NCBI RefSeq assembly: GCF_018598185.1
Contig: NZ_JAHESC010000008.1
Coordinates: 1-64,000 of the forward strand
Length of the DNA stretch: 64,000 nucleotides
From: Dawidia soli
GTDB lineage: Bacteria > Bacteroidota > Bacteroidia > Cytophagales > Cyclobacteriaceae
Direction of reading: 5' to 3'
The notes beneath the pieces are model-generated. The model ran no database searches. It was given only the letters and a program-made list of their open reading frames with translations, and was not told the DNA's origin. Made by a program: the position numbers and the translations under genes. Below, piece by piece: positions 4,636 to 20,171 of this stretch (positions are counted from its first letter, which is position 1; each line of letters starts with the position of its first letter).

Positions 4636-5023
4636 ACGGGGGAGTATTGAAATATGTTCGAATTAACGTTGAAACCCCGGATGGGAACAGCGCGCGCGAT
4701 TAGGTGGGCGGACTGAGTTATTAAGTGGGGAGTTCTGTCGATCAACGTACGGGTTCCGACGATAAGCGGCTGGAAACGGGGGAGTAAGTGTCTGACGCGG
4801 TTTAACCGTCGTACGCCCGAATGGCACGGCCCTGAAAGCAGAAAAGCCCCGTGGCCGTCTGCCAGCGGGGCTTTCTAATTCCTGTAACCCTTAAACCCAA
4901 AACCTATGATACAGGAGAATTTTACTGTGTATGTGCTACAAATATACGGCGGCCCCGAGGCGACCGATAGAGGAAATGAGCAGGTGGGAGAAGCAAATGA
5001 GCAGGCGGAAGAAGTCGCCGGGT
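4636..5023. other. 388-bp intergenic region upstream of cheY
   Basis: No convincing gene is seen here. The part next to cheY should carry the cheY operon promoter, but I find no clear TTG/TAnnTTTG pair. The middle holds a strong GC hairpin (4843-4874), and further right is a TATATTTG element on the minus strand (4946-4939). Together these could make a short RNA, annotated separately. A 62-codon reading frame on the plus strand at 4906 has no supporting features and looks accidental. Confidence 0.5.
4843..4934 (-). ncRNA. Candidate small RNA ending in an intrinsic terminator
   Basis: On the minus strand a TATATTTG box (4946-4939) matches the Bacteroidota -7 consensus TAnnTTTG. It would start a transcript near 4934. 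About 60 nt further is a 9-bp perfect stem (AAAGCCCCG paired with CGGGGCTTT, arms 4866-4874 and 4843-4851) followed by a short T run, so the product would be roughly 90-100 nt. No good -33 TTG is found. The alternative is that the hairpin is only a leader attenuator or an upstream terminator before cheY. I cannot assign a family. Confidence 0.35.
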
Positions 5024-5725
5024 CTACGGCTGCGTCGCCGGGTGGATGGGTAACGGCTGCTGATGGCCGAAATCTGCCTGGTACAGCAGTTTGATGAGGC
5101 GGTCATCCAGTTGCGTGGCGCTGGCCTCCAGCATATCGGCCAGCAGCCCCAGCTCCGTATCGTCGGGGCGATTCTTGAGCAGGCGGATCAGCCCCCGGAT
5201 GTTCGCCACCGGCCCGCGCAGGTCGTGCGACGTGCGATAAACGAAATCCTCCAATGCTCTGCGGTTTTCCGCCAGTTGCTGGTGGAGCTGACGGACGATG
5301 TCGAGGTTCTTTAGCTTCAGAACAATGTAGCCATTGTAATCGCTGATCAGTCCCAGGTAAAACCCGGACAAGCCAAAGACAACGGCCTGGCCGTTGCTGG
5401 TCTGCAGCGAAACGACGATCTCCTTAAAAAAACCCGCGCCCAACGCTGCCTGTAACATCGGCTGCAGGTCTTCGTCCGCGCCGCCCAGGTAGTTGATGCT
5501 TTGCCCTTCGAGCGCCCCGGCGGTGTACCCCAGCGTACGCAGGATGGGGTGGCTGACCATCGCGATCCGGAAGCGGCCGTCGAGTATGACCGAGTCTTCG
5601 AAGATCGTCGCCAGGTTGCGCACAATATCACTCTCGGCAATCAACGCCGGCGGGAGCGTCTGCTCCGGAATGTTCCATTCATAGTCCTGCATCACCTTTC
5701 GTTCCCTGTCATCACTCCGTTGCAT
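5024..5725 (-). CDS. PAS-DHp protein: histidine kinase fragment without ATPase domain
   Basis: The 233-residue protein has a PAS-like domain (about residues 30-145) and then a HisKA-type dimerisation/phosphotransfer helix with H-box FVYRTSHDLRGPVANIRG. It stops about 60 residues after the H-box. The N, G1, F and G2 boxes of the ATPase domain are absent, and no frameshifted ATPase remnant lies downstream. It therefore cannot autophosphorylate by itself. It could be phosphorylated in trans or act as a phosphotransfer or dimerisation partner. Its ATG overlaps the stop of the upstream GAF/PAS gene by one base (TGATG), so the two products are probably made together. Confidence 0.85.
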   Translation of the reverse strand: MQRSDDRERKVMQDYEWNIPEQTLPPALIAESDIVRNLATIFEDSVILDGRFRIAMVSHPILRTLGYTAGALEGQSINYLGGADEDLQPMLQAALGAGFFKEIVVSLQTSNGQAVVFGLSGFYLGLISDYNGYIVLKLKNLDIVRQLHQQLAENRRALEDFVYRTSHDLRGPVANIRGLIRLLKNRPDDTELGLLADMLEASATQLDDRLIKLLYQADFGHQQPLPIHPATQP

Positions 5726-19150: not shown

Positions 19151-19183
19151 TAAAAAAACCCGTTCCGGAAAACCGGAACGGGT
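19151..19183 (-). terminator. Intrinsic terminator of the tRNA-like RNA unit
   Basis: A perfect 11-bp stem (ACCCGTTCCGG / CCGGAACGGGT) with a 4-nt loop is followed on the minus strand by seven T residues. It lies about 35 nt after the 3' end of the second tRNA-like element and upstream of fadD, so it ends the transcript that carries both elements. Confidence 0.9.
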
Positions 19184-19218
19184 AGCTCTAGAATAACTCA
19201 TTAACCTAAACTGAGCTG

Positions 19219-19367
19219 CTGTAGGAGAAGGATTCGAACCTCCACGGAGCGGTTAGGCTTTGTACTGACCCTGTATTCCAGAAAATGACGGGATCAGCGC
19301 ATTGCTTTGTTCCTTTTCCTCCACCCTCGAGACCGGAGGGCATGTCTGCCAATTTCAACACCCTACA
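19219..19367 (-). ncRNA. tRNA-Leu-like RNA with odd anticodon loop, copy B (149 nt)
   Basis: Read on the minus strand it folds as a class II tRNA: a 7-bp acceptor stem TGTAGGG/TCCTACA (one G-U), T8 and G9, a 3-nt D-stem strand TTG facing CAT, and a Leu-type D-loop AAATTGGCAGA. The anticodon stem is 5 bp (CCCTC/GAGGG), the variable region is 80 nt, and the T-arm is GGAGG-TTCGAAT-CCTTC. The 7-nt anticodon loop is CGGTCTC, so position 33 is G instead of U and position 37 is T. A normal tRNA could not decode like this. The variable region is closed by GGAG/CTCC and holds an inner hairpin (CTGA-T-CCC with GGGTCAG). CCA is not encoded. The D-stem has one T-T mismatch. Confidence 0.6.
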
Positions 19368-19397
19368 ATGTGTATCTTTGTGTGTGCGTGTGCGCGG

Positions 19398-19514
19398 CTG
19401 TAGGAGAAGGACTCGAACCTCCACGGAGCGGTTAGGTCGCCAAAGGCTGGACTTTATTCCGTTACCTCCACCCTCGAGACCGGAGGGCTTGTCTGCCAGT
19501 TTCAACACCCTACA
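19398..19514 (-). ncRNA. tRNA-Leu-like RNA with odd anticodon loop, copy A (117 nt)
   Basis: This upstream copy of the pair has all stems intact: acceptor TGTAGGG/TCCTACA, D-stem TTG/CAA, anticodon stem CCCTC/GAGGG and T-arm GGAGG-TTCGAGT-CCTTC. The D-loop AAACTGGCAGA is of tRNA-Leu type. The anticodon loop is again CGGTCTC, identical to copy B and lacking U33. The variable region is 48 nt and keeps the GGAG/CTCC closing stem and a GCC-AAA-GGC hairpin (read on the plus strand), but otherwise differs from copy B. The flanks of both copies carry CA-repeat-rich spacers. It could be a decayed tRNA-Leu, but the shared loop and the terminator after the pair argue for a maintained RNA. Confidence 0.6.
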
Positions 19515-19685
19515 AGATGTTTATTTTTGTGTGAGCAAGCGTGTGTGTTTGTTTCTGTCTCGTTGTAAATTATGTAACAAAGTAACACATTAACTGGTAC
19601 CGGAATCAATAAATGATTCCAATAATTGTATACTTTTCAATATTATTTCATATTTTTGAATTAACACTAACAACCAATTTTACGC
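19515..19685. promoter_or_regulatory. Divergent promoter region of the tRNA-like RNAs and the AsnC gene
   Basis: On the plus strand TTG (19626-19628) and TATTTTTG (19651-19658), 22 nt apart, make a plausible promoter for the AsnC-family gene at 19686. On the minus strand the RNA pair must start here too. The best element there is TACTTTG, one base short of consensus, in the stretch around 19575-19590. Confidence 0.45.
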
Positions 19686-20171
19686 ATGGCAGAAAATTAT
19701 AAAGTTGACAATGTAGACCTGAAGATTCTGGAGATTTTAATGCAGGATGCCAAGAAGCCTTACACCGAAGTAGCCAAAAAAGCCTTCGTATCGGGTGGAA
19801 CGGTGCACGTACGGATGAATAAGATGGAGGAAGCGGGCATTGTCGAGAAAACGACATTGAAAGTGAACTACGCCAAGCTGGGCTACGACATCACCGCTTT
19901 CATTGGGATTTTCCTTCAGAAAAGCGCCTTGTACGACCAGGTGATCGCCAAGATCAAAGCCATCCCGGAGATCACCAGCATCCATTATACAACCGGCAAT
20001 TACAGCATGTTCTGTAAGATCCATTGTAAGGATACGAATCACCTCAAACTGGTATTGCACGACAAGATCCAGCAAGTGGAAGGCATTGAACGCACCGAGA
20101 CCATGATCTCCCTGGAAGAGAGCCTGGACCGCAGCCTGAACCTCGTCGATCAAACAATTTCAAATAAATAA
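19686..20171 (+). CDS. Lrp/AsnC-family transcriptional regulator
   Basis: The 161-residue regulator has an N-terminal winged helix-turn-helix (about 8-60; KILEILMQDAKKPYTEVAKK, then GTVHVRMNKMEEAGIV). A C-terminal RAM ligand-binding domain follows (about 70-150, with ITAFIGIFLQKS and the YTTGNYSMFCKIHCKD segment). The family usually senses amino acids as dimers or octamers. The helix-turn-helix begins very close to the N-terminus and is slightly shortened in the recognition region. It lies 85 bp upstream of the suf operon on the same strand and is divergent from the tRNA-like RNAs, so either could be its target. Neither link is proven. Confidence 0.9.
   Translation: MAENYKVDNVDLKILEILMQDAKKPYTEVAKKAFVSGGTVHVRMNKMEEAGIVEKTTLKVNYAKLGYDITAFIGIFLQKSALYDQVIAKIKAIPEITSIHYTTGNYSMFCKIHCKDTNHLKLVLHDKIQQVEGIERTETMISLEESLDRSLNLVDQTISNK

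Follow-up and report, generated by a model that had tools for sequence, protein, structure and literature searches.

Background

The staphylococcal tRNA-Gly that does not take part in protein synthesis is a tRNA of ordinary size that is set aside for a non-ribosomal job as a glycine donor for the cell wall. The acceptor branch of allo-tRNA and tRNA-Sec is longer than the usual 7/5 and takes the forms 8/4, 9/3 and 8/5. A decoding tRNA carries U33 and a purine at position 37 of its anticodon loop.

Like selC* tRNA-Cys, allo-tRNA and tRNA-Sec are non-canonical tRNAs whose variable arm is long (passages of PMC7609411). In Bdellovibrio and others, asparagine is made on tRNA-Asn by means of a non-discriminating AspRS, and a survey counts Bacteroidetes among the genera that have AsnRS, GlnRS and GatCAB but no asparagine synthetase (both according to parts of PMC4206432). 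A review (PMC9976931) names G73, G34, U35, C36 and C38 as the bases that chiefly determine aspartate identity. It further gives U1-A72 as the pair that confers amidation of Asp-tRNA, whereas G1-C72 and U20a prevent it. According to the same review, G1-C72 of bacterial tRNA-Asp helps the E. coli AspRS to position the acceptor end, and leucine identity requires A73.

Here we describe a family of tRNA-like RNAs, which we call TLS. It is represented by two elements in the window, i.e., the whole stretch of 64,000 nucleotides of Dawidia soli DNA that was analysed. As far as our searches of titles and abstracts in the open literature reach, the family has no earlier description.

Methods

A1 is an alignment of 44 TLS members; the covariance models R1 and R2 were built. 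A3 comprises 127 distinct TLS sequences that were not selected by loop pattern.

The co-occurrence of TLS with GatCAB was studied in 72 genomes (35 with and 37 without TLS), which were picked by TLS status and family before the search for GatB; 57 of the 72 belong to the window's class, presumably Bacteroidia. The presence of GatCAB was scored through GatB, without GatA and GatC. The prediction was set beforehand: if TLS is a substrate of GatCAB, genomes with TLS should need this enzyme even when they have both GlnRS and AsnRS and could otherwise do without it.

Results

TLS genes in the window

An earlier note on this DNA had placed two tRNA-like elements at 19219-19514. Both were confirmed, and both lie on the minus strand (Table 1). 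The lengths of 117 and 149 nt given there hold if the encoded C74 is left out, and not if it is counted. The acceptor stem, the Leu-type D-arm, the 5-bp anticodon stem, the CGGTCTC loop, the GGAG/CTCC pair and the TTCGA T-loop that it described are all present.

Table 1. Coordinates of the features of the TLS locus in the window
Feature	Position	Strand	Description
TLS copy 1	19397..19514	-	118-nt tRNA-like RNA; U1-A72, G2-C71, U3-A70, G73, encoded C74
TLS copy 2	19218..19367	-	150-nt tRNA-like RNA, longer variable arm than copy 1
Anticodon-like loop, TLS copy 1	19476..19482	-	CGGTCTC = C32 G33 G34 U35 C36 U37 C38
Anticodon-like loop, TLS copy 2	19329..19335	-	same seven bases, CGGTCTC
Terminator-like stem-loop 3' of copy 2	19158..19183	-	11-bp stem, T run
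Divergent intergenic region between TLS and AsnC-like gene	19515..19685	.	171 bp
AsnC-like regulator of the Lrp/AsnC family	19686..20171	+	head-to-head with TLS

Copy 1 scores 130.1 bits with R1 (E 1.2e-32) and 124.5 bits with R2; the scores of copy 2 are 125.5 and 128.3 bits. Over its full length copy 1 is 99% identical to the copy in genome G002 and 89-92% identical to those in G003-G006. ARAGORN called 0 tRNAs in the whole window. An Rfam scan, at the gathering cut-off and at E up to 10, gave weak non-tRNA chance matches only, some of them on the terminator. Both results support the view that the elements are of no known tRNA type. A tRNA-Leu with an error in the loop, the alternative under which the earlier claim would fall, is excluded because none of the five tRNA-Leu anticodons is missing from the genome.

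In single-sequence folding the copies did not rise above shuffles (z 0.30 and -1.03), and neither did pieces of the variable arm. The terminator scan behind copy 2 found one stem-loop versus a mean of 0.6 (sd 0.9) in shuffles. Among the genome's genuine tRNAs that were listed, a C follows base 73 as a rule, mostly without a full CCA, and TLS are alike in this.

Distribution of the family

TLS occurs in Cytophagales, in Saprospiraceae and in viral contigs. BLASTN detected copies, often tandem, in relatives; used alone, it gave no convincing TLS in six of 37 genomes of the same family (G014, G016, G020, G022, G033, G035). When a sample of 292 genomes of the order was searched with the model, all 54 same-family genomes, the window's own included, matched at 2.3e-25 or better. 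Matches were obtained in 286 of the 292 genomes with ordinary tRNA-Leu counted in; some 50-60, as judged by eye, have matches in the tRNA-Leu range or none. TLS is common in the order, not universal. A scan found at least 119 stretches, and the 80 listed include matches in Dyadobacter, Cyclobacterium, Algoriphagus, Runella, Spirosoma, Emticicia, Flammeovirga, Fulvivirga and Saprospiraceae. The nearest named relative with TLS among the matches listed is Parachryseolinea silvisoli (L077). Within the set of 72 genomes the best TLS of each positive genome scores at least 96.9 bits; among the matches listed none falls between 94.5 and 62.1 bits, and those below are of tRNA size.

Fold and covariation

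The acceptor stem of the family has 7 bp, and the anticodon stem and the T-stem have 5 bp each. The T-loop is canonical, and the D-arm is close to that of the genome's own tRNA-Leu GAG and CAG. The variable arm is closed by GGAG/CTCC together with a covarying 3-bp stem (88.7% of A3 cells paired); in A1 it encloses a conserved internal loop, G-N-A-N-A-A facing CTAAC. The distinct members of A3, broken ones included, span 109-194 nt.

Pairing was observed in 97.8% of A3 cells versus 90.7% in shuffled and 54.7-67.3% in slid alignments. Double changes occur at 16 of 27 pairs, which none of 500 shuffles reached; in alignment A2, part of which was pattern-selected, they occur at 18 of 27. The covariation supports the cloverleaf. 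The homologues in Cytophagales that the earlier note had called for were thus found, with covariation, and this comparative pairing speaks for the selection on tRNA shape that it had suggested.

The anticodon stem sequence CCTCC was considered as an anti-Shine-Dalgarno look-alike. This idea was dropped, as the stems vary among members in a way that preserves pairing but not CCTCC.

Many TLS carry a GGGTTGACCAC-like motif at the tip of the variable arm, and the window copies have no such motif. The conserved motif, GGGTTGACCAC / GGGGTAGACCACCA, is also present in phage TLS. Some copies are broken by inserted palindromic repeats (L214 1321-1453 and 1141-1273, L211 1671-1804, L006 1090-1258). The sequence TCCCGATAGCTATCGGGA is found in three repeat-broken copies and also within or near other TLS, with no match in the window. 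In contig G000:C28 (L248 247-326, 638-715), two extra tRNA-Met-like copies adjoin a normal tRNA-Met. Their anticodon-stem region differs and holds the palindromic repeat TCCGCC...GGCGGA, and they are probably broken by its insertion.

Conserved and variable bases

The pairs U1-A72, G2-C71 and U3-A70 and the bases G73-C74, U35, C36 and C38 are invariant in all 127 sequences of A3. Position 34 is G in 120 of them and A, U or C in the remaining seven. Position 32 is C or U, position 33 may be U, G, A or C, and position 37 is U or C. The homology search somewhat favours conserved loops; bases 32, 33, 34 and 37 vary nonetheless. The decoding bases thus drift while another set of bases stays frozen.

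The commonest loop is CTGTCTC with U33 (60 of 127). G33, pointed out in the earlier note, holds for the window copies and is a minority variant across the family, found in 31 of the 127 as a plain 7-base loop. The claim that the loop is ill-suited to decoding fared better: a pyrimidine occupies position 37 in 127 of 127 sequences, and the window copies have G33 and U37 where a decoding tRNA has U33 and a purine.

TLS has the bases of an AspRS substrate, G73, U35, C36, C38 and, in the 120 sequences, G34. The G1-C72 pair of bacterial tRNA-Asp is replaced by U1-A72 in all 127. The two features of a GatCAB substrate, U1-A72 and the absence of U20a, are both found. The latter follows from A1, where an invariant A comes after G18 G19 and one further base in 44 of 44 rows, so that there is no base 20a. 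Because its fixed bases match the reviewed determinants, TLS thus seems to combine aspartate identity with the amidation signal, though without G1-C72.

Two other chargings were considered and dropped. Charging by GluRS on the way to glutamine is hard to reconcile with G34 and U37, and it is AsnB that is absent from the genomes with TLS. Charging with leucine is at odds with G73 instead of A73 (127 of 127), and neither leucine nor serine identity explains U1-A72 and the loop bases.

A compact relative of 77 nt (L394 188-264; G048:C23:55337-55413) differs in its anticodon stem, and its variable region is short. Its loop is CTATCTC, with A34, and it keeps U1-A72, G73, U35, C36, U37 and C38. ARAGORN calls it tRNA-Asp(atc), unlike the window copies. 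Other genomes of the same genus, with E near 1e-14 in the order sample, may have the same compact form.

Co-occurrence with GatB

GatB is present in 35 of 35 genomes with TLS versus 15 of 37 without it. AsnRS scores over the cut-off in 70 of the 72 genomes, including all 35 with TLS, and GlnRS in 46. Among these 46, GatB was found in 22 of 22 genomes with TLS versus two of 24 without. If only genomes of the window's class with both GlnRS and AsnRS are considered, the counts are 22 of 22 versus 0 of 20 (Fisher 1.9e-12, a value that ignores relatedness and is inflated by shared ancestry). Two families, f22 and f23, hold both TLS states, and both agree with the link. The prediction that GatB is present wherever TLS is, in genomes of the class with GlnRS and AsnRS, held.

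All five genomes of the class that have GatB and no TLS (G057, G457, G038, G052, G099) lack GlnRS. The two exceptions with GatB and GlnRS and without TLS (G088, G235) lie outside the class. In both of them the open frame of GlnRS (1205 and 845 aa) continues into a second, partial GatB match, so that GlnRS has a GatB-type tail. The 13 genomes with TLS and without GlnRS, the window's own among them, carry no information for this test; the window genome needs GatCAB for Gln-tRNA anyway because GlnRS is absent there.

Asparagine synthetases and the type of AspRS

AsnB (NF006949) scores over the cut-off in none of the 35 genomes with TLS versus 17 of 37 without; two of the latter group (G111 and G153) have an AsnB match under the cut-off, that of G111 only just under. 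AsnA is over its cut-off in two of 35 (G218, G222) versus four of 37, and TLS-positive G045 is just below. Another AsnB-like protein passes the TIGR01536 cut-off in 31 of the 35 genomes with TLS, and such proteins might make asparagine. The window's genome is included and has two of them (633 and 630 aa), with NF006949 scores of 323 and 269 against a cut-off of 499. Four genomes with TLS (G304, G206, G324, G046) have neither AsnA nor a TIGR01536 protein over the cut-off. Three genomes of the class (G103, G075, G172) are without AsnA, the AsnB equivalog, GatB and TLS alike; G111 is a fourth, apart from its AsnB match just under the cut-off.

We compared AspRS at two sites that we take to be determinants of specificity, the histidine of the motif RD-His-G being, on this assumption, the signature of a non-discriminating enzyme. 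Histidine is present in G063 and G068, two genomes without AsnRS. The site holds K, L or F in all 28 TLS-positive enzymes and nine TLS-negative enzymes examined, with histidine in none of the 28, and it is Leu in the E. coli and T. thermophilus enzymes. The second site reads T-V-N in G063 and G068, K-N in 25 of 28 TLS-positive and nine of nine TLS-negative enzymes, and P-N or I-N in three TLS-positive enzymes of family f66. The difference in length at this site is not diagnostic, the E. coli AspRS being also two residues longer. Because the TLS-positive enzymes have K, L or F instead of histidine, charging of tRNA-Asn by them looks less likely. If these sites do decide specificity, these enzymes would need a GUC-like anticodon such as TLS offers.

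Gene neighbourhood

In 50 of 94 loci TLS has an AsnC-like gene at a distance of at most 4 kb, and in 49 the two are head-to-head; several of the loci come from one genus. The remaining 44 loci have no AsnC-like gene within the stretch covered. Among the seven NCBIfam families listed for the window's regulator, the best is NF008384 AsnC, with 169 bits, under the cut-off of 227; LrpA gives 81 and Lrp 45. The E. coli genes asnC and asnA face each other with a gap of 151 bp; the gap between TLS and the AsnC-like gene is 171 bp. The recurrent neighbours of TLS are the AsnC-like gene, SufB and an acyl-CoA-ligase-like gene, the last two named from sequence. In 17 genomes classed as TLS-negative, no hidden TLS turned up within 1.5 kb of the Lrp/AsnC homologues (30 loci). 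In one TLS-negative genome (L267, G392:C54:82134-84050) an Lrp/AsnC homologue adjoins asnS, the AsnRS gene, and converges on it.

Among 96 first copies of relatives, 61 have the motif TAnnTTTG, which we take to be the promoter consensus, no more than 80 nt upstream, versus 6.2 expected and eight on the opposite strand. The window has TTACTTTG at 19585-19578 (-), one mismatch from this motif.

Viral copies

The TLS pattern was found in 55 viral contigs of IMG/VR (L339-L393; e.g., L360 2552-2723). Among 42 distinct viral TLS that are readable, the loop itself having been selected, 39 have U1-A72, two have A-U and one is cut; G73 is present in 41 of 41 complete ends. At least some of these contigs are true phages, since L348 carries portal and terminase genes. 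tRNA genes are near TLS in seven of nine viral loci scanned; in L354, TLS (4948-5118) lies alongside 25 tRNAs and a tmRNA, and some viral TLS sit within arrays of about 25 tRNAs. Searches of a plasmid collection and an annotated phage collection gave no TLS match. Several phage TLS have an altered D-arm with an extra hairpin.

Discussion

Proposed role of TLS

Judging from identity bases and gene content, TLS is probably a dedicated non-decoding tRNA that is charged with aspartate by AspRS and converted to its asparagine form by GatCAB, and so supplies the cell with asparagine. The balance of the evidence also leans towards a broader statement: a tRNA would have left translation and become the scaffold for asparagine synthesis in a large part of a bacterial order and in its relatives, replacing the protein asparagine synthetase, standing beside an AsnC-like regulator and travelling with the tRNA arrays of phages. 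Of the three roles suggested in the earlier note, charging for a non-ribosomal use is therefore the one favoured, with Asp and then Asn via GatCAB; a regulator and a decoy gained no direct support.

In the mechanism that we infer, TLS would be transcribed from its own promoter, as the motifs suggest, and would be matured as tRNAs are. The ordinary AspRS would load aspartate by way of the GUC-type anticodon, C38 and G73. The U1-A72 pair, together with the co-occurrence with GatB, suggests that Asp-TLS is a substrate of GatCAB, which would turn Asp into Asn on the RNA. Asparagine would then leave by hydrolysis or transfer, and once free could be used by AsnRS on the normal tRNA-Asn. On the ribosome a GUC-type RNA bearing asparagine would misread Asp codons, so that TLS has to be excluded from it; we propose that it is kept away by the pyrimidine 37, the variable base 33 and the usually very long variable arm. 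Synteny points to the AsnC-like regulator as the factor that probably tunes TLS transcription to asparagine.

Several findings weigh against this reading. TLS lacks G1-C72, and seven of 127 sequences have a base other than G at position 34. Most TLS-positive genomes (31 of 35) keep another AsnB-like protein, and two have AsnA. G088 and G235 combine GatB and GlnRS without TLS, whereas G103, G075 and G172 do without TLS, GatB and both synthetases. The window's own genome would need GatCAB in any case, its regulator scores under the AsnC cut-off, and the family is not universal in the order.

Alternative explanations

The asparagine formed on TLS may instead be passed directly to a lipid, the cell wall, a peptide or a protein end. 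The evidence from identity bases and GatB applies equally to such a transfer, and 31 of 35 TLS-positive genomes keep other AsnB-like proteins. We nevertheless regard it as unlikely: the housekeeping AsnB is over the cut-off in none of the 35, the linked gene is an AsnC-like regulator, and no transferase is among the recurrent neighbours.

A charged and amidated TLS that acts as a sensor of Asn or Asp, or as a decoy, and in this way regulates AspRS, GatCAB or the neighbouring regulator, is quite improbable. Such a role would suit the head-to-head linkage to an amino-acid-responsive regulator family, the non-decoding loop and the multiple copies. However, the identity bases are still fixed though 44 of 94 loci have no such linkage in the stretch covered, the absence of AsnB and the strict link to GatB fit a metabolic role better, and phages carry TLS among tRNA genes (7 of 9 loci).

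We give very little credence to an unusual tRNA that decodes Asp codons, or to a class II tRNA that accepts Leu or Ser. U33 in most relatives and the GUC anticodon recall the former, the D-arm close to tRNA-Leu GAG and CAG the latter, and G73 with the long arm brings tRNA-Ser to mind. Against decoding stand the pyrimidine 37 and, in the window's lineage, G33; the genome also has ordinary tRNA-Asp (two) beside its tRNA-Leu set. TLS has neither A73 nor a Leu anticodon, and A73 is needed for leucine identity (PMC9976931) where TLS has G73 throughout. The link to GatB, as well as U1-A72 and the loop bases, would be left unexplained.

An origin of TLS as a mobile element or as junk left over from tRNA genes, at which tandem copies and the palindromic insert in three A3 copies might hint, is scarcely credible, because the covariation already contradicts it, and the promoter motifs, the presence in 54 of 54 same-family genomes and the plasmid and annotated phage collections free of matches all speak against it.

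Implications

If asparagine synthesis on TLS is true, these bacteria keep an RNA family solely for making an amino acid; we know of no other organism that does so. It would account for the retention of GatCAB, which many of them keep beside both GlnRS and AsnRS, and for the source of asparagine where the usual synthetase is absent. Many genomes would need a corrected annotation of their asparagine metabolism. The ways of keeping a tRNA off the ribosome and early RNA-bound amino-acid synthesis would become directly testable.

Comparison with known systems

The tRNA-Asn route of Bdellovibrio, Deinococcus, Thermus and S. aureus, with its non-discriminating AspRS and GatCAB, resembles the proposed TLS route in that AspRS loads Asp and GatCAB amidates it via U1-A72, and in that it occurs without AsnA or AsnB despite the presence of AsnRS and GlnRS (according to parts of PMC4206432). 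The carrier differs: instead of tRNA-Asn it is a tRNA-like RNA in its own right, with an anticodon of the Asp type. An AspRS that discriminates should therefore be enough, and TLS has to be kept from decoding.

With the aspartate tRNA (GUC) TLS shares G73, G34, U35, C36, C38 and G2-C71. It differs in having U1-A72 rather than G1-C72, a pyrimidine at 37, a Leu-type D-arm, no U20a and usually a very long variable arm. With leucine tRNA it shares the class II shape and a very similar D-arm, but it has G73 and a non-Leu anticodon, and its variable arm, which holds an additional conserved internal loop, exceeds that of tRNA-Leu several-fold in length. Like the staphylococcal tRNA-Gly, TLS is proposed to be a tRNA with a non-ribosomal job; unlike TLS, that tRNA is of ordinary size and donates its glycine to the cell wall. 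Finally, a long variable arm is common to TLS, allo-tRNA, selC* tRNA-Cys and tRNA-Sec, whereas TLS stands apart from them by its normal 7/5 acceptor branch.
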